From positions 62,001 to 126,000 of the forward strand of contig NZ_VKCZ01000008.1 in assembly GCF_009299835.1 (NCBI RefSeq): a stretch of 64,000 bases of DNA, in the 5' to 3' direction. The notes beneath the pieces are model-generated. The model saw only the letters and a list, made by a program, of their open reading frames with translations, was not told the DNA's origin and searched no databases. The stretch comes from Microlunatus speluncae (GTDB lineage Bacteria; Actinomycetota; Actinomycetes; Propionibacteriales; Propionibacteriaceae). Every line of letters begins with the position of its first letter. Positions within the stretch are counted from its first letter, which is position 1. Made by a program: the position numbers and the translations under genes. Below, one piece after another: positions 5,002 to 30,774 of the stretch.

Positions 5002-6579
5002 CTACTTGCCCTGATTATTGATCATTTTGCCAAGGCCGGGCGGCAACTGGAAGTCCTTGATGGCCTGCTCCAGCTGTTCTGGTTCCATTCCGCCGCCGAA
5101 CGCGGCCGCCGGATCGACGGTCTCCTCCGGCTGGCCCGACTTGGCCGCGGCCCGTTTGGCCGGGTTTCCGGACACCTTCTTGCCGCGCTTGTTCTTCTTG
5201 CCCTGCTTGGCCGCGGGCCGCTTCGCCGCTCCCGGCAGGCCCGGCATGCCGGGCATCCCCGGCATGCCCTTGCCCGTCGCGAGCTGGCTCATCATCTTGC
5301 GAGCCTCGAAGAACTTGTTCACCAGATTGTTGACCGCCGACACCTCGACCCCGGAGCCGCGGGCGATCCGGGCCCGCCGGGAGCCGTCGATGATCTTGGG
5401 ATTGTCCCGTTCCGACGGCGTCATCGAGTGGATGATCGCCTCGATCCGGTCCACTTCCTTCTCGTCGATTCCGGCGATCTGGTCCTTCATGTCGCCCATC
5501 CCCGGCAGCATGCCGAAGATCTTGGACAGCGGACCCATCTTGCGCACCATCTGCATCTGCTGCAGGAAGTCGGAGAGGCCGAACTCGCCGCCGCCCTTGG
5601 TGGTCAGCTTGGCCGCGGCCTTGGCCGACTGCTCGGCGTCGAACGTCTTCTCCGCCTGCTCGATCAGCGTGAGCATGTCGCCCATGCCGAGGATCCGGCT
5701 CGCCATCCGGTCGGGATGGAACAGGTCGAAGTCGTCGACCTTCTCACCGTTGGAGGCGAACATGATCGGCCGGCCGGTGGCCTTGGCGATGGACAACGCG
5801 GCACCGCCGCGGGCGTCGCCGTCGAGCTGGGTGAGGACCACCCCGTCGAACCCGACGCCGTCGGCGAACGCGTTCGCGGTGTTGACCGCGTCCTGGCCGA
5901 TCATCGCGTTGACCACGAACAGGACCTCGTCCGGGTTCACCGCATCCCGGATGTCGATCGCCTGCTGCATCATCTCGGCGTCCACGCCGAGCCGGCCGGC
6001 GGTGTCGACGATCACGATGTCGTACAGCTTGCGTTCGGCCTCCGCCATGGAAGCGCGGGCCACCGCCACCGGATCACCCGTACCGTTGCCCGGCTCCGGC
6101 GCGAAGACCTGGACCCCGGCCCGCTGACCGACCACCTGGAGCTGGTCGACCGCGTTCGGCCGCTGCAGGTCGGCCGCGACCAGCAGCGGCGAGTGACCCT
6201 GGCCCTTCAGCCAGTACGCCAGCTTGCCGGCCAGCGTCGTCTTGCCGGCACCCTGCAGGCCGGCCAGCAGGATCACCGTCGGCGGGTTCTTCGCGAACCG
6301 GATCACCCGGGTCTCGCCGCCGAGGATGTTGATCAGTTCCTCGTTGACGATCTTGATGATCTGCTGGCCGGGATTCAGCGCGCCGCTCAGCTCGGCCGAC
6401 TGGGCCCGCTCCCGGATCGCGGCGATGAAGTCCTTGACCACGGCCAGTGCGACGTCGGCCTCGAGTAGCGCTCGGCGGATCTCCCGCGCGGTCGCGTCGA
6501 TGTCGGCCTCGGTGATCCGGCCCTTGCCGCGCAGGCTCTTGAACGTCGCGGCCAGGCGGTCCTGCAGTGTGTCGAACAC
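5002..6579 (-). CDS. ffh: Signal recognition particle GTPase Ffh/SRP54
   Basis: Ffh binds 4.5S RNA and signal sequences and delivers ribosomes to FtsY at the membrane. The N domain is followed by the GTPase G domain with LQGAGKTT (G1), DLQRPNAVDQL, DTAGRL (G3) and LTQLDGDARGG. The Met-rich M domain ends in a GMPGMPGMPGLPG run and a lysine-rich tail. I place the start at the GTG at 6579 (VFDTLQDRLA), preceded by GAGGA seven bases upstream; an in-frame extension to 6660 adds 27 residues unlike Ffh. Product 525 residues, normal for actinobacteria. It heads a minus-strand group with the amidohydrolase and hydrolase-ABC genes. No 4.5S RNA gene was recognised in the window. Confidence 0.97.
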   Translation of the reverse strand: MFDTLQDRLAATFKSLRGKGRITEADIDATAREIRRALLEADVALAVVKDFIAAIRERAQSAELSGALNPGQQIIKIVNEELINILGGETRVIRFAKNPPTVILLAGLQGAGKTTLAGKLAYWLKGQGHSPLLVAADLQRPNAVDQLQVVGQRAGVQVFAPEPGNGTGDPVAVARASMAEAERKLYDIVIVDTAGRLGVDAEMMQQAIDIRDAVNPDEVLFVVNAMIGQDAVNTANAFADGVGFDGVVLTQLDGDARGGAALSIAKATGRPIMFASNGEKVDDFDLFHPDRMASRILGMGDMLTLIEQAEKTFDAEQSAKAAAKLTTKGGGEFGLSDFLQQMQMVRKMGPLSKIFGMLPGMGDMKDQIAGIDEKEVDRIEAIIHSMTPSERDNPKIIDGSRRARIARGSGVEVSAVNNLVNKFFEARKMMSQLATGKGMPGMPGMPGLPGAAKRPAAKQGKKNKRGKKVSGNPAKRAAAKSGQPEETVDPAAAFGGGMEPEQLEQAIKDFQLPPGLGKMINNQGK

Positions 6580-26235: not shown

Positions 26236-26964
26236 GTGTCTCATATGAGGCGGTCACACCGGGTCATCATCATCGCGGCGATCGGCCTGGTCGGGCTGTC
26301 CCTGGTCCTCGCCGGCGGCTATCAGCTGATGAACGCGCGCACCCTGCAGGTCGCCGGCCGGCTCGTCCATCGCGTCGAAACCCCGGACAAGCTCATCGCA
26401 CTCACCTTCGACGACGGGCCGACCAGCTCCGACGAAGCCGCGGCCATCCTCGACACCCTGGCCGCGCGGTCGGTCCGGGCGACCTTCTTCGTCACCGGCC
26501 GGGAGGTCGACCGAGATCCGGAGGCGGCCTCGCGGATCGTCGCGGCGGGCCATGAGCTCGGCAACCACACCTGGAGCCATCCGCGGATGATCTTCCGCCC
26601 GCCGGCCGAGATCGCCGAGGAGATCGAGTCCACCGACCGGGTGATCAGGGCCGCCGGCTATCGCGGCGAGATCACCTTCCGCCCCCCGTACGGCAAGAAG
26701 TTGCTGGCCCTGCCGCTCTATCTCGCCGCCCACGACCGGACGACGATCATGTGGGACGTCGAGGCCGACAGCGACGGCGGCCCGGACCAGTCCGCGGCCG
26801 AGATCGCCGGCCGGACCCTCGCCCACAGCCGGCCCGGTTCGATCATCCTGCTGCACCCGTGGCACGGCCGCAGCGCGACCCAGCAGGCGATCGGCCCGAT
26901 CATCGATTCCCTGCACCGGCAGGGTTATCGGTTCGTCACCGTCTCCGAGTTGATCAATGGCTAG
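26236..26964 (+). CDS. Polysaccharide deacetylase (NodB homology domain) protein
   Basis: This 242-residue protein has an N-terminal membrane anchor or signal (VIIIAAIGLVGLSLVLAGGY) and a single carbohydrate esterase 4 domain: motif 1 TFDDGP (metal and catalytic Asp), motif 2 HTWSHP, motif 3 FRPPYG, motif 4 MWDVEADS and motif 5 IILLHPWHG. It should deacetylate cell-wall or extracellular N-acetylglucosamine polymers. The GTG at 26236 is given; the ATG at 26245 is equally possible because neither has a clear ribosome site. It is divergent from the hpa operon and overlaps the TetR gene by 8 bases. Confidence 0.87.
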   Translation: MSHMRRSHRVIIIAAIGLVGLSLVLAGGYQLMNARTLQVAGRLVHRVETPDKLIALTFDDGPTSSDEAAAILDTLAARSVRATFFVTGREVDRDPEAASRIVAAGHELGNHTWSHPRMIFRPPAEIAEEIESTDRVIRAAGYRGEITFRPPYGKKLLALPLYLAAHDRTTIMWDVEADSDGGPDQSAAEIAGRTLAHSRPGSIILLHPWHGRSATQQAIGPIIDSLHRQGYRFVTVSELING

Positions 26965-27499
26965 GCCGGCCGCGATCACCCGGGACGCGCTGGACCACGT
27001 TGCCCTCGACCTCTTCCTCGCCCGCAGCTATCCGGCCGTCAGCGTGGCCGACCTGGTCGAGGCCGCCGGAATCTCCCGGCCCACCTTCTTCCGCTATGCC
27101 TCGCGGCGGGAGGACCTGGTCCTCGACCACATCGCCGCCTTCGGCACCGCGGTGGCCGATGCGGTGCACCGGCACCCGGCCCGGGGGTGGGCGGCACTCG
27201 CCGGCGCCATCTGCGACTCGCTCGAGTCGATCACGCCCGATTCGCTGACCGGCAAGGCTTTCCAGGTGCTCCGGCGCGACGAACGCCTCCGGTCTGCCGC
27301 CCTCGGACTGACCCGGCCCTGGCGGCGCAAGGTGACCGCGTCCCTACTCGACCGCGGCGACTACGGGGGTGACCCCGTCCGTTGCGAGTCGGCCGCCGCG
27401 ATGGCGATCGGACTGGCCCAGATGATGTGGGCCCAAGACGATCCCCGCCCCGACCCGCGAGCCGTCTACGCCGACGCCCCCAACGCGGTTCGGCTCTGA
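26957..27499 (+). CDS. TetR family regulator
   Basis: A 180-residue regulator with the TetR helix-turn-helix (AVSVADLVEAAGISRPTFFRYASRREDLVLDHI, here starting near residue 28) and a C-terminal helical ligand domain. It overlaps the deacetylase gene by 8 bases and is probably co-transcribed with it. Its ligand and targets are unknown. Confidence 0.87.
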   Translation: MARPAAITRDALDHVALDLFLARSYPAVSVADLVEAAGISRPTFFRYASRREDLVLDHIAAFGTAVADAVHRHPARGWAALAGAICDSLESITPDSLTGKAFQVLRRDERLRSAALGLTRPWRRKVTASLLDRGDYGGDPVRCESAAAMAIGLAQMMWAQDDPRPDPRAVYADAPNAVRL

Positions 27500-27509
27500 G
27501 CCGTCAGGC

Positions 27510-29129
27510 TCAGAGGTCGCCGCGGGAGAAGTCGGCCAGCAGCTGAGGGGCCGCGCTGTCGACGCCGACGAGGTCGAGCATGCCGGAGTCACGCGGGTCG
27601 GCAATGCTGAAGCCGGTGGAGGTCATGCCCCAGACCACCAGTTTGGCCGGGATCCCGGTCTTGCGCCGATACTCGGCCAGGGCCTGATGTGGGTGGACCG
27701 AGCCGGCCCAGGTTTCGCTGTCGGTGATCACCAGGAAGGTGTCGACCTCGAGCCCGAGCTCCAGCGCCTTGATCATCGGCAGCGCGCAGTCGGTGCCGCC
27801 GAAGGGGAGCCCGGAGACGGTGTCGATCACGCCCTCCAGCCGTTGCCGCGGACCGATCGGCAGCTCCGTCAGCACCCGGTCCTGCCAACCGGCGGCCGCC
27901 GAGGTGAAGCCGTAGACGGCGGTCATCGGCTCGGTGGCCACGGTGATCATCGACATCGCCGCCGAGGCCTCCCGGGCGGTGAGCGGGCCGCCGGCGATGC
28001 GGGCCATCATCGAGCCGGACACATCCAAGCCGATCATGGTCCGCCGGTTCGCCGGCACGACGTTGCCGAACGACGCGTAGTACGCCGCGTCCAGGGCATC
28101 GAGCACCGGCCGGGCCGGGGTCCAGGTCGAGGATCCGCGAAAGGACCGGCCGGCGGCGTAGGTGCGCAGCGCGACGAGCACGTTGAACGGGTGGATCCGG
28201 GCCCGGCTCAGCCGCTCCGGGTCGGTCAGTTGCGCCACCACATCGTCGGTCCGATCACCGGCGCGCAGCGCGTTGCCGATCACCTCGAGCCGGGTCAGCC
28301 GGGGCAGCTGCCGGATCAGCGCGGTCATCGGCAGGCCGACCTCGATCAGCGCCTCCCAGACCTCTCGTTCGGTCAGGGCCGCGTCGGGCAACATCTCCCA
28401 GGAGAGCCGGTAGTCCTTGATCAACCGGACCCAGTCGGTGGCCGACTCGGCCGCCTGGGCGGCGACGAACCCGTGCACGAGCCGCGGCAGTTGATACGAC
28501 AGATCGTCCTGGGTGATCCAGCGATAGAGGGCGTTGCGCAGTTGATCATCGGTCTTCGGGTGGATCAGCCGGAGCAGGTCACGCTGGCTGAAGCCTTCCC
28601 GGCTGCGATACTTCACCAGCTGGTACGCCAGCGCGTCGACCTCCTTGCCGTCGTACCAGCGCCGGGCCGCCCGCATCAGCCCCGAGCCCCAACCACGGAA
28701 CTGCGTCACATACTTCGCGAACAGCATCAGGTGGGTCCCGGTGCGCAGCACGTCGGGCAGCGCGGCGAATGCCGCGGCCCGGCCCTCGGGCCGCTCCGAG
28801 GCGGCGGCGACGGCCAGCGCGAAGATCGTCGGTTGTTGCTTGGGGGCGCGGCCGGCGAGCGACACCTCGCGGATGATCTCGACCAGGCGAGCCGGATCGG
28901 TCGCGGCGAAGTCGATCACCGCGGACGCGTTCTCCCGGGTCAGCTCCGCCTCGCCCTGGTAGTAGGTCCCGCCGCTGGTGCCGATGATCAGAAATCGGCG
29001 CAGCCGCTGCTCGGGAGTGATCTCGAAGACGTGCCCGCCGGCGTGATTGGGCACCTGATCCGGGGTCGCCGGCACCGACTGCGGCGTGCGCCGGGTCGAG
29101 ATCCGGGTCAACGGATCCGAGCTGTTCAT
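27510..29129 (-). CDS. rsr: Ro60/Rsr ortholog (TROVE domain RNA-binding protein)
   Basis: This 539-residue Ro protein forms a HEAT-repeat ring (TROVE, residues about 20-330) that binds misfolded RNA and Y RNAs, and a von Willebrand A-like domain with an intact MIDAS: DVSGSM, the Thr in FGGTDCALP and Asp in VITDSETW. Start ATG 29129 is chosen because GGGAGGGG lies 6 bases upstream; longer frames run into the Y RNA. In Deinococcus and Salmonella Ro works with a Y RNA and PNPase in RNA decay. Here the Y RNA gene sits 38 bases upstream on the same strand. No RtcB/RtcA ligase genes are near. Confidence 0.95.
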   Translation of the reverse strand: MNSSDPLTRISTRRTPQSVPATPDQVPNHAGGHVFEITPEQRLRRFLIIGTSGGTYYQGEAELTRENASAVIDFAATDPARLVEIIREVSLAGRAPKQQPTIFALAVAAASERPEGRAAAFAALPDVLRTGTHLMLFAKYVTQFRGWGSGLMRAARRWYDGKEVDALAYQLVKYRSREGFSQRDLLRLIHPKTDDQLRNALYRWITQDDLSYQLPRLVHGFVAAQAAESATDWVRLIKDYRLSWEMLPDAALTEREVWEALIEVGLPMTALIRQLPRLTRLEVIGNALRAGDRTDDVVAQLTDPERLSRARIHPFNVLVALRTYAAGRSFRGSSTWTPARPVLDALDAAYYASFGNVVPANRRTMIGLDVSGSMMARIAGGPLTAREASAAMSMITVATEPMTAVYGFTSAAAGWQDRVLTELPIGPRQRLEGVIDTVSGLPFGGTDCALPMIKALELGLEVDTFLVITDSETWAGSVHPHQALAEYRRKTGIPAKLVVWGMTSTGFSIADPRDSGMLDLVGVDSAAPQLLADFSRGDL

Positions 29130-29166
29130 GATCATCCCCTCCCGGAACGGCGACTCGAACGTGGTG

Positions 29167-29313
29167 CGGTGATCCTCAGACAAGTGATCGGCAACCCGAT
29201 ATTCCAATGCTCTAGCCACTGAGCTACGGCGGGACAGAAGTCACGCCGGCGGGAATCGAACCCGCGACCGTTGGATCAGAGTTAACGGACTGCCTTCGGT
29301 CTGAGGACCACCG
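29167..29313 (-). ncRNA. yrlA: YrlA-like Y RNA with circularly permuted tRNA-like module
   Basis: On the minus strand the ends pair as a 15-bp stem, CGGTGGTCCTCAGAC with GTCTGAGGATCACCG (one G-U). Just inside is CGAAGG, resembling the Ro-binding GNCGAA motif. Then come half of an anticodon-like stem (TCCAA), a 5-base variable loop, a T-arm (GCGGG TTCGATT CCCGC), acceptor strand CGGCGTG, an 8-base cap (ACTTCTGT), the other acceptor strand CCCGCCG, a D-arm (GCTC AGTGGCTA GAGC) and TTGGA, which closes the anticodon-like stem. The T-arm therefore precedes the D-arm and the acceptor stem is closed by a loop, as in YrlA. It lies 38 bases before rsr. Ends are set by the stem, and mature ends may differ. 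Confidence 0.88.
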
Positions 29314-29406
29314 ATCGTCAAGGGTACGGCCCGCCGGGTCGGACCGCCAAGGAATTCCTGCGCATCGCCTACAGTGTTGCGAAATCAACGGTGATGCGGA
29401 GGATCC

Positions 29407-30774
29407 ATGGACTCCCCTGACTCGACTGCGACGGACCGTGCGACGACCGCCAGAGAGCGACGCCGCGTCGCCCTGGCGACAACGATCGGCACGACGATCG
29501 AGTGGTACGACTTCTTCATCTACGCCAGCGCCGCGGGCCTGGTGTTCGCGCAGCTGTACTTCCGGCCGGCGGGCGACCAGATCGCGCTGCTGCTGTCGTT
29601 CGGTTCGGTCGGCGTCAGCTTCCTGTTCCGGCCGCTGGGCGCCTTCCTGGCCGGCCATCTCGGCGACCTGATCGGCCGCAAGGCCATGCTGGTGCTGACG
29701 CTGATCTTGATGGGCGCGGCGACCACCCTGATCGGCGTTCTGCCCACCTACGACTCGGCCGGGGTGCTGGCGCCGGTCTGCCTGCTGATCTTGCGGATCC
29801 TGCAGGGCCTGTCCGCCGGCGGCGAGTGGGGCGGGGCGATCCTGATGGCGGTGGAGCACGCACCTGAGGGCCGGCGCGGCCGGTTCGGCGCCTTCCCCCA
29901 GTTGGGGCCGCCGCTCGGCCTGCTGGCCGCCTCCGGCATGTTCGCCCTGATGGCCGTGATCGCCCCCGGCGAGGCGTTCGCGGCGTGGGGCTGGCGGGTG
30001 CCGTTCCTGTTCAGCGTGGTGCTGATCGCGGTCGGGCTGATCGTCCGGACCAGGGTCGCCGAGAGCCCGGTCTTCACCGAACTCGCGCAGCGCCGGCAAC
30101 GAACCACGGTGCCGATCGCCCGCCTGTTCCGGTTCCACACCCCGATCGTGATCTTGGCCGCGCTCACCTTCGCCGGCAACAACGCGGCCGGCTACATGAC
30201 CACCGGCGGCTACATCCAGAACTACGCGACGAATCCGGCCGGGCCGCTGGGGCTGGAGCGAGCACCGGTGCTGCTCGCGGTCACCGCCTCGGCCGTCGTC
30301 TGGGGCCTGAGCACCTGGATCGGCGGCACCCTGTCGGACCGGATCGGCCGGCGCACCACGTACCTGATCGGCTGGGGTTGCCAGCTGCTCACCGTGTTCC
30401 CGATGTTCTGGCTGGTCAACACCGGCGACCTGTGGTTGCTGGGGCTCGGGCTGGCCCTGTTCACGATCGGCAACGGCCTCACCTACGGTCCGCAGGCGGC
30501 GTTCTTCGCCGAGCTGTTCCCGGCCTCGATCCGCTACTCCGGCGTCGCGATCTCGTACGCCATCGGAGCGATCCTCGGCGGCGCCTTCGCGCCGACCATC
30601 GCGACCGCCCTGGTCCAGCAGTTCGGCAGCACCAACGCGGTCGCGGTCTATCTGGCCGTGCTGACGGTGATCGCGGCGGCGGCGACATTCCTGCTCCGCG
30701 ACCGCACCGGCATCCCGCTCGGCCCGGAGCACGAGCAGGCCCAGTCCCGCGGCACGACCATCCTGTCGAGCTGA
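29407..30774 (+). CDS. MFS transporter, metabolite:H+ symporter (MHS) family
   Basis: This 455-residue carrier has twelve spans and the MHS start pattern TTIGTTIEWYDFFIYASAAGL. The loop after span 2 reads GHLGDLIGRKAM, and the mid-protein counterpart is GTLSDRIGRRTT. Related proteins (ShiA, ProP, KgtP, benzoate or dicarboxylate carriers) import organic acids or osmolytes. It is divergent from the Y RNA/rsr unit. Start ATG 29407 has GGAGGA just before it. Uptake of an aromatic or organic acid feeding nearby catabolism is plausible but not shown. Confidence 0.88.
   Translation: MDSPDSTATDRATTARERRRVALATTIGTTIEWYDFFIYASAAGLVFAQLYFRPAGDQIALLLSFGSVGVSFLFRPLGAFLAGHLGDLIGRKAMLVLTLILMGAATTLIGVLPTYDSAGVLAPVCLLILRILQGLSAGGEWGGAILMAVEHAPEGRRGRFGAFPQLGPPLGLLAASGMFALMAVIAPGEAFAAWGWRVPFLFSVVLIAVGLIVRTRVAESPVFTELAQRRQRTTVPIARLFRFHTPIVILAALTFAGNNAAGYMTTGGYIQNYATNPAGPLGLERAPVLLAVTASAVVWGLSTWIGGTLSDRIGRRTTYLIGWGCQLLTVFPMFWLVNTGDLWLLGLGLALFTIGNGLTYGPQAAFFAELFPASIRYSGVAISYAIGAILGGAFAPTIATALVQQFGSTNAVAVYLAVLTVIAAAATFLLRDRTGIPLGPEHEQAQSRGTTILSS

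Follow-up and report, generated by a model that had tools for sequence, protein, structure and literature searches.

A YrlA-type Y RNA beside the Ro60/Rsr gene of Microlunatus speluncae, and its relatives in actinobacteria

The genome of Microlunatus speluncae contains a locus which is, with high confidence, an actinobacterial YrlA Y RNA together with its partner Ro60/Rsr, a caretaker protein for RNA. The locus lies in a window of 64,000 nucleotides (contig NZ_VKCZ01000008.1, positions 62,001 to 126,000), a term used here for the whole stretch of DNA that was analysed. The analysis establishes the Ro gene and, for the RNA, a comparative fold, conservation and an association with Ro. A preliminary description had named a Ro60 gene with an adjoining YrlA-type Y RNA carrying a permuted tRNA module, and this was borne out by a covariance model built without this RNA, by covariation and by co-occurrence with Ro. 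The pair is real and well supported, and is a further example of an already known kind.

The protein-coding part of the locus consists of the following features:

27510..29129, minus strand: Ro60/Rsr gene, 539 amino acids from ATG 29129 (ATG 29135 is an alternative start), with TROVE and vWA domains
29138..29142, minus strand: GGAGG, likely ribosome-binding site of Ro, read from the letters, 8 nt before ATG 29129

The earlier claim of an intact TROVE/vWA Ro gene was confirmed with Pfam, where the protein matched vWA_Ro60 with 196 bits (E 5.3e-58) and TROVE with 144 bits (E 1.1e-41). Among proteins of known structure, it matches Rsr of Deinococcus radiodurans best (PDB 2nvo, E 5.2e-108). The TROVE domain precedes the vWA domain, and the protein was aligned with 2nvo and 1yvp. 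Because the match to 2nvo extends over the full length, a ring-shaped fold is likely for the Ro protein, judging from its sequence. The DxSxS metal site of the vWA domain is intact, with D370, S372 and S374 invariant across 15 proteins. The Ro protein of Microlunatus parietis is 87% identical to that of the window. The distance from the end of the outer stem of the Y RNA to ATG 29129, the start with the well-spaced GGAGG, is 37 nt on the same strand, which corrects the 38 bases given before. A longer reading frame of Ro begins at GTG 29219, within the Y RNA, and automatic annotation could therefore put the Ro start inside the Y RNA.

The RNA is composed of the following parts:

29167..29313, minus strand: YrlA-type Y RNA, 147 nt, from covariance model and comparison, with ends set by the outer stem and not by a transcript
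29299..29313, minus strand: outer stem, 5' arm CGGUGGUCCUCAGAC, 15 pairs, mean pair probability 0.992, covarying in relatives (with picking bias)
29167..29181, minus strand: outer stem, 3' arm GUCUGAGGAUCACCG, pairing with 29299-29313
29295..29298, minus strand: internal loop of the predicted Ro-binding site, 5' side CGAA, with C 29298 and G 29297 invariant in 56 aligned units
29182..29189, minus strand: internal loop, 3' side GAUCACUU, from the fold
29286..29294, minus strand: predicted Ro-binding helix (helix 2), 5' strand GGCAGUCCG, 9 pairs, mean probability 0.80
29190..29198, minus strand: predicted Ro-binding helix, 3' strand CGGGUUGCC, containing most of the ATCGG-GTTG-CCGAT letters
29271..29275, minus strand: short stem at the base of the tRNA-like module, 5' strand UCCAA, fitting the 4-bp stem of Rfam YrlA, mean pair probability 0.53
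29203..29207, minus strand: short stem at the module base, 3' strand UUGGA, pairing with 29271-29275
29249..29265, minus strand: T-arm GCGGG-UUCGAUU-CCCGC, mean pair probability 0.998, covarying in relatives
29227..29248, minus strand: acceptor-type stem with closing loop, CGGCG-U-GAC UUCU GUC-C-CGCCG, mean pair probability 0.992, covarying
29209..29224, minus strand: D-arm GCUC-AGUGGCUA-GAGC, paired in relatives, mean pair probability 0.405 in the single-sequence fold

The 15-bp outer stem proposed earlier is complete when one G-U pair is counted among its 15 pairs, and the permuted order inside it, with the T-arm, the capped acceptor stem and the D-arm following each other, was read both in the fold and by comparison. 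The T- and D-arms of the module match the tRNA consensus, and an anticodon arm is absent from the fold. For the RNA strand, a minimum free energy of -71.1 kcal/mol was obtained; 200 shuffles gave -50.4 on average, and none of them folded as low (z -4.75). Within the ensemble of this single sequence, the low pair probabilities listed above apply to the D-arm and the basal stem, and the minimum-energy structure draws other pairs at the base of the module; the hand-drawn YrlA fold has -68.2 kcal/mol.

For the classification of the RNA, 80 named Ro loci (L032-L111), the best 80 of 141, were fetched, and Y units were sought upstream of Ro by a stem scan. These loci were obtained with a Ro alignment as query; a single Ro protein as query gave no relatives in genome contigs or viral contigs. 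A covariance model, R1, was derived from 45 Y RNAs of other genera with zero Microlunatus rows, many of the 80 loci contributing rows. R1 placed the window RNA at 29172-29308 with 89.4 bits and E 1.7e-16, and gave no other match in the genome at E<=0.01. Among the 18 Ro-less Microlunatus genomes, the best R1 match had 32.8 bits, and matches at E about 0.005 in two genomes were gone at E<=1e-4. R1 also gives partial matches of about 30-42 bits (positions 27-106 or 29-106) at successive tRNAs, for example at L116 6138-6221, and seven partial matches (positions 29-106, 41.6-42.2 bits) found elsewhere in Ro-bearing genomes of one genus are likely to be tRNA pairs of the same sort.

At the curated cut-offs of Rfam, the window contained no match, tRNA included, and ARAGORN called 0 tRNAs in it, so that the refuting outcome named earlier, placement as an ordinary tRNA remnant, did not occur. 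At a lax threshold, the best family was YrlA (RF02553) with 37 bits over model positions 1-114 of 114, under the cut-off of 69. The window RNA was the only match of this search at E<=0.001 in the whole genome; matches were also obtained in 7 of 14 control genomes, and the search is hence not proof. From the tRNA clan, only an 18-nt T-arm of tmRNA with 15.3 bits was shown at the lax threshold, in a table from which lower-scoring clan matches were omitted. The YrlA matches at 29 loci of the family (L003-L031) were likewise below the cut-off of 69, the best having 52.5 bits. Covariance-model searching, proposed in the preliminary description, upheld the assignment with R1 and gave a score below the cut-off with the Rfam YrlA model. 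The gathering score of RF02553, which the window RNA does not reach, is an annotation threshold and not a biological trait. The RNA combines a permuted tRNA-like module, an end-formed stem with a conserved internal loop and an adjoining Ro60/Rsr gene, which are the traits of the YrlA class, and it does not form the cloverleaf with an anticodon arm by which a tRNA is recognised. Its structure places it in the YrlA class; it is not counted as a member of RF02553 in the present outline of that family.

The fold was examined in alignment A2, consisting of 56 full Y units (55 distinct), which were picked by requiring pairing of the outer stem and helix 2 and a D-arm pattern. In the drawn structure, 95.8% of the cells are paired and 25 of the 32 pairs show double changes; the covariation score is 0.497, compared to 0.156 on shuffling and no more than 0.122 when partners are slid. 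The picking favours the outer stem, helix 2 and the D-arm in these counts. Within this bias, compensating changes in the 15-bp stem of homologous loci, as envisaged earlier, are present, 8 of 9 pairs in helix 2 vary on both sides, and the D-arm, whose pairing was part of the picking, is paired in 99.5% of the cells. Pairing of the T-stem (100% of cells; double changes in 4 of 5 pairs) and of the acceptor stem (86.1%; 4 of 5) was not a picking criterion. For a test of helix 2 free of this bias, units were collected by sequence motifs alone; 128 5' motifs were found, 96 of them with the 3' motif downstream. In these 96 units, the five variable pairs of helix 2 are formed in 87.3% of the cells; shuffling gave 57.5%, and in 2000 rounds never more than 64.0%. 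The complete set of five pairs is formed in 55 units, compared to at most 17 on shuffling. The window is absent from this set, and the YrlA of M. parietis misfits the 3' motif. All these shuffle statistics ignore the kinship of the rows. The stem at the module base is weakly supported, the longest helix averaging 4.21, and 3.82 when partners are swapped, with 1 of 200 swaps reaching the observed value. The covariation expected for a genuine Y RNA is present, for helix 2 in the motif-only set as well.

The comparison also bears on an extra hairpin, ATCGG-GTTG-CCGAT, which the preliminary description had not recognised from described Y RNAs. The letters are there; the new hairpin did not hold up, since most of them belong to the 3' strand of helix 2, where CGGGUUGCC pairs with GGCAGUCCG as a nine-pair helix. 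The hairpin has a mean pair probability of 0.003, and in the 56 units (55 distinct) 37.2% of its cells are paired, with 52 of 500 shuffles as high. The best fold containing it has -67.6 kcal/mol, which is 3.5 above the minimum of -71.1. Fold energy alone cannot choose between hairpin and helix 2, because the hand-drawn YrlA fold itself reaches only -68.2, and conservation decides. In M. parietis, the helix is formed by GACAGUCCG/CGGGUUGUC, in which one G-C pair is replaced by A-U (GGC/GCC to GAC/GUC), and the hairpin is broken there. The detail is therefore ordinary, the compensating change in M. parietis keeping helix 2.

The RNA follows Ro through the family. A Ro match was identified in 30 of 198 family genomes, the window's included, and R1 at E<=1e-4 found a Y RNA in 27 of the 198, each full-length and all 27 within the 30 with Ro. 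None was found by R1 at this threshold in the 168 Ro-less genomes. The three genomes that have Ro and gave no match (G074, G180, G193) have the Ro gene directly at the end of a contig or no more than 97 bases away from it. Some Ro-bearing genomes gave rows to R1, so that the figure of 27 leans on the model, which does not apply to the 0 of 168 and to the two Microlunatus genomes; the scan of the 198 genomes used stricter filters, by which some weak matches were lost. One Y unit of 68.3 bits (G072:C1:1426969-1427112) lies far from the Ro locus of its own genome at 3.33 Mb. This distribution bears on the reading of the RNA as a broken or permuted tRNA remnant without function, such as a former phage integration site, to which the tRNA-like T- and D-arms and the tRNA calls of ARAGORN on similar units in two phages would lend themselves. 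No tRNA is called at the window RNA, its arms sit in a 15-bp stem and a putative Ro-binding helix kept in other actinobacteria, and its presence tracks that of Ro (27 of 30 compared to 0 of 168 genomes), and we give a remnant practically no probability.

Within the genus, Ro was found in 2 of 20 Microlunatus genomes, those of the window and of M. parietis. The Y RNA of the window and its counterpart in M. parietis share 82.6% identity, compared to 40.7% for the stretch before and 45.2% for the stretch after it. Two Microlunatus genomes that lack Ro (G101 and G107) have a gene for a fumarylacetoacetate-hydrolase-like protein next to a divergent MFS gene, with aligned parts 62 and 261 bases apart, and relatives of the aldehyde dehydrogenase and GntR genes follow beyond this pair. 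The gap between the hydrolase-like and the MFS gene holds Ro and two Y RNAs in M. parietis, and Ro, one Y RNA, a polysaccharide deacetylase gene and a TetR gene in the window. The deacetylase and TetR regulator genes lie at 26236-27499, between the hydrolase gene and Ro, and have no match at E<=1e-10 in a 19-kb stretch of M. parietis. The simplest reading is that the Ro-Y RNA pair was inserted once in this Microlunatus lineage, repeated loss being a conceivable alternative.

The origin was also approached by a tree of 61 Ro proteins, from the window, 55 of the 80 named loci and 5 phages. The Microlunatus pair branches separately, on a long stem, and forms no supported clade with other Propionibacteriaceae; phage BearBQ groups with Gordonia and phage Farewell with Mycolicibacterium.

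The second Y RNA of M. parietis is short, precedes its YrlA (L032 3702-3768) and has 43 bits with R1. No such unit was found near the Ro gene of the window, where unfiltered R1 over 26,900-30,000 gave 89.3 bits for the known RNA and 14.7 for the next match. R2, a model of short Y RNAs which has the short unit of M. parietis among its own rows and scores it with 53.8 bits, gave no match at E<=1 in the window's genome; R2 failed to report the known YrlA genome-wide, so a divergent second unit could escape it. A stem-scan candidate about 332 bases before Ro was rejected, as it overlaps the start of the MFS gene and is unsupported by unfiltered R1.

Arrays of Y units are common at the related loci. 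At least one unit lies within 1600 nt upstream of Ro on the same strand in 78 of the best 80 (of 141) loci, with one unit in 11, two in 32, three in 16 and four in 19 loci, so that multi-unit arrays (two to four) are present at 67 of 80; the loci of Cellulomonas gelida and C. cellasea have four units each. By a coarse motif test, 97 of 199 units have T- and D-arm, 49 the T-arm only, 12 the D-arm only and 41 neither. The full type accounts for the first, Ro-distal unit in 55 of 67 arrays. At the Ro-proximal position, 19 of 78 loci have a full unit, 21 a T-only unit, 4 a D-only unit and 34 a unit with neither arm. A recurring order emerges, with a full tRNA mimic distally, a T-arm-only unit in the middle and often no tRNA part beside Ro. 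In 23 short units, the covariation score of both shared helices exceeds that of all 500 shuffles, the structure having been predicted from the same rows.

Ro relatives were also identified in 350 of 50,697 phage records. At the phage loci that were opened, Y units were found in 7 of 7, and two or more in 6 of 7, Ava3 being counted. The Ro protein of phage BearBQ is 57% identical to that of the window and has Y units upstream. The prophage prophiGD43A-5 carries four Y units before Ro, the first being a YrlA unit at 752-885 with 108 bits. A tRNA-Thr annotated there (L135 747-825), and also called by ARAGORN, lies almost wholly inside this unit and is probably a misannotation. In Gordonia phage Forza, the region beyond Ro (L116 5387-6024) has Y units interspersed with tRNA genes, with four full-length Y matches at E<=0.001; an annotated tRNA-Gln (5537-5604) lies within a Y unit at 5533-5663 (51 bits), and a tRNA-Leu called by ARAGORN (5723-5811) overlaps a Y unit at 5739-5872 (83.7 bits). 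The remark that such loci are easily misread as tRNA is matched by these two phage records. Y RNAs in phages are mentioned in PMC7765460, and according to PMC12282133, citing Chen 2014, they were computationally identified in mycobacteriophages.

The position of the units upstream of Ro raises the question whether the RNA is a cis-acting leader, which as part of the 5' untranslated region would control the translation of Ro in an autoregulatory manner and would not act in trans. The window RNA stands on the same strand 37 nt before the start codon, no terminator was recognised in between, and the same-strand upstream position recurs in 78 of the best 80 (of 141) loci. However, a leader would not need a tRNA-like module, the four full-length matches of Forza lie beyond Ro among tRNAs, and related RNAs elsewhere in bacteria are Rsr-bound RNAs, as stated in PMC4726728. 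A leader is consequently considered very unlikely.

The likely function, by analogy, is the tethering of Ro to PNPase for the decay of structured RNA. PMC8394870 and PMC4726728 describe such an arrangement, RYPER, in D. radiodurans, where a Y RNA tethers Rsr to PNPase. YrlA is reported in the former to be bound by Rsr in the cell, its module to be bound by PNPase and to be modified by TruB and DusA, and PMC4726728 has Ro60 holding Y RNAs via a bulged lower stem, which helix 2, the CGAA/GAUCACUU internal loop and the outer stem of the window RNA resemble. In the proposed mechanism, Ro would hold the outer stem and the CGAA-loop stem formed by 29286-29298 and 29182-29198, and the tRNA-like module would offer an L-shaped face to PNPase and perhaps also to tRNA-modifying enzymes. 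The Y RNA, possibly made with Ro from one transcript, would then tether and gate Ro on PNPase, leading to decay or maturation of structured RNA, probably under stress. Neither a promoter nor a terminator was recognised at the locus. A PNPase gene is present in the window's genome and in 14 of 14 control genomes; its presence says little because it is nearly universal. For RtcB, no match was found in the window's genome (97.4% complete), and 9 of 14 control genomes have one; RtcB-linked RNA repair is therefore probably not part of this system.

Instead of a PNPase tether, the Ro-associated RNA might be a decoy for enzymes that bind or cut tRNA, such as anticodon nucleases or modification enzymes, possibly in phage contexts. 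This idea was raised for YrlA in PMC7790460, and it would suit a module with T- and D-arms and without an anticodon arm as well as the Ro relatives in 350 of 50,697 phage records and the Y units at 7 of 7 opened phage loci. The examined neighbours of the window locus, judged by protein families, are catabolic, transport and regulator genes and not phage genes, and a decoy is regarded as unlikely. The tether to PNPase is the reading retained here.

Vertebrate Y RNAs are not known to have a tRNA-like module. The CGAA stretch and the start of the helix in the window RNA presumably resemble hY1. According to PMC4726728, vertebrate Y RNAs (hY1 and others) have a Ro60-binding lower stem with bulges, to which the window RNA is likened with homology not being claimed. 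One of the closest known systems is YrlA (RF02553) of Salmonella Typhimurium and Mycobacterium smegmatis, which has the identical end-to-end topology of outer stem, second stem, short basal stem, T-arm, acceptor hairpin and D-arm and is located beside rsr, as the window RNA is beside Ro60/Rsr. The window RNA differs in its score of 37 bits under the cut-off of 69 and in the RtcB not found in its genome, while in the RNA-repair operon rsr-yrlBA-rtcBA, RtcB accompanies Ro and the Y RNA. Rsr of D. radiodurans (2nvo), compared by the protein alone, is a whole-length relative with TROVE and vWA domains. In Propionibacterium (Arachnia) propionicum, of the same family as Microlunatus, Ro60 RNPs with Y RNAs were immunoprecipitated (Greiling et al., as cited in PMC11277228). 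The A. propionica loci L048 and L065 have four Y units each, compared to one in the window, and Arachnia Ro (L048) belongs to a supported clade in the tree which excludes the Microlunatus pair. The Ro genes and Y RNAs of actinobacterial phages lie on phage genomes, with at least two units at six of the seven loci opened, and the window locus has one unit.

Several Y RNAs per Ro have already been published, as for yrlBA in Salmonella in PMC7790460. For ordered Y RNA arrays, no description was found in a literature search that did not reach the main YrlA/Ro60 papers. A tentative picture, to which we give somewhat less than even weight, is that in actinobacteria and their phages one Ro is served by one to four Y RNAs with a common stem and graded, ordered modules, and that swapped tethers would steer Ro to different partners. 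The lone YrlA of the window, without the small unit of M. parietis, might then be a stripped-down version with the tRNA mimic only.

The main gain is in the annotation gap, by which Y RNAs are misread or missed, and in the ordered arrays of the relatives. At its curated cut-off, Rfam fails to report this RNA and its counterparts at 29 related loci; because of this, and because such RNAs are listed as tRNAs in two phage records, the number of Y RNAs in actinobacteria is probably underestimated. The compact Ro-YrlA pair of Microlunatus, with an empty site in two relatives, offers a test case for the role of a single Y RNA.
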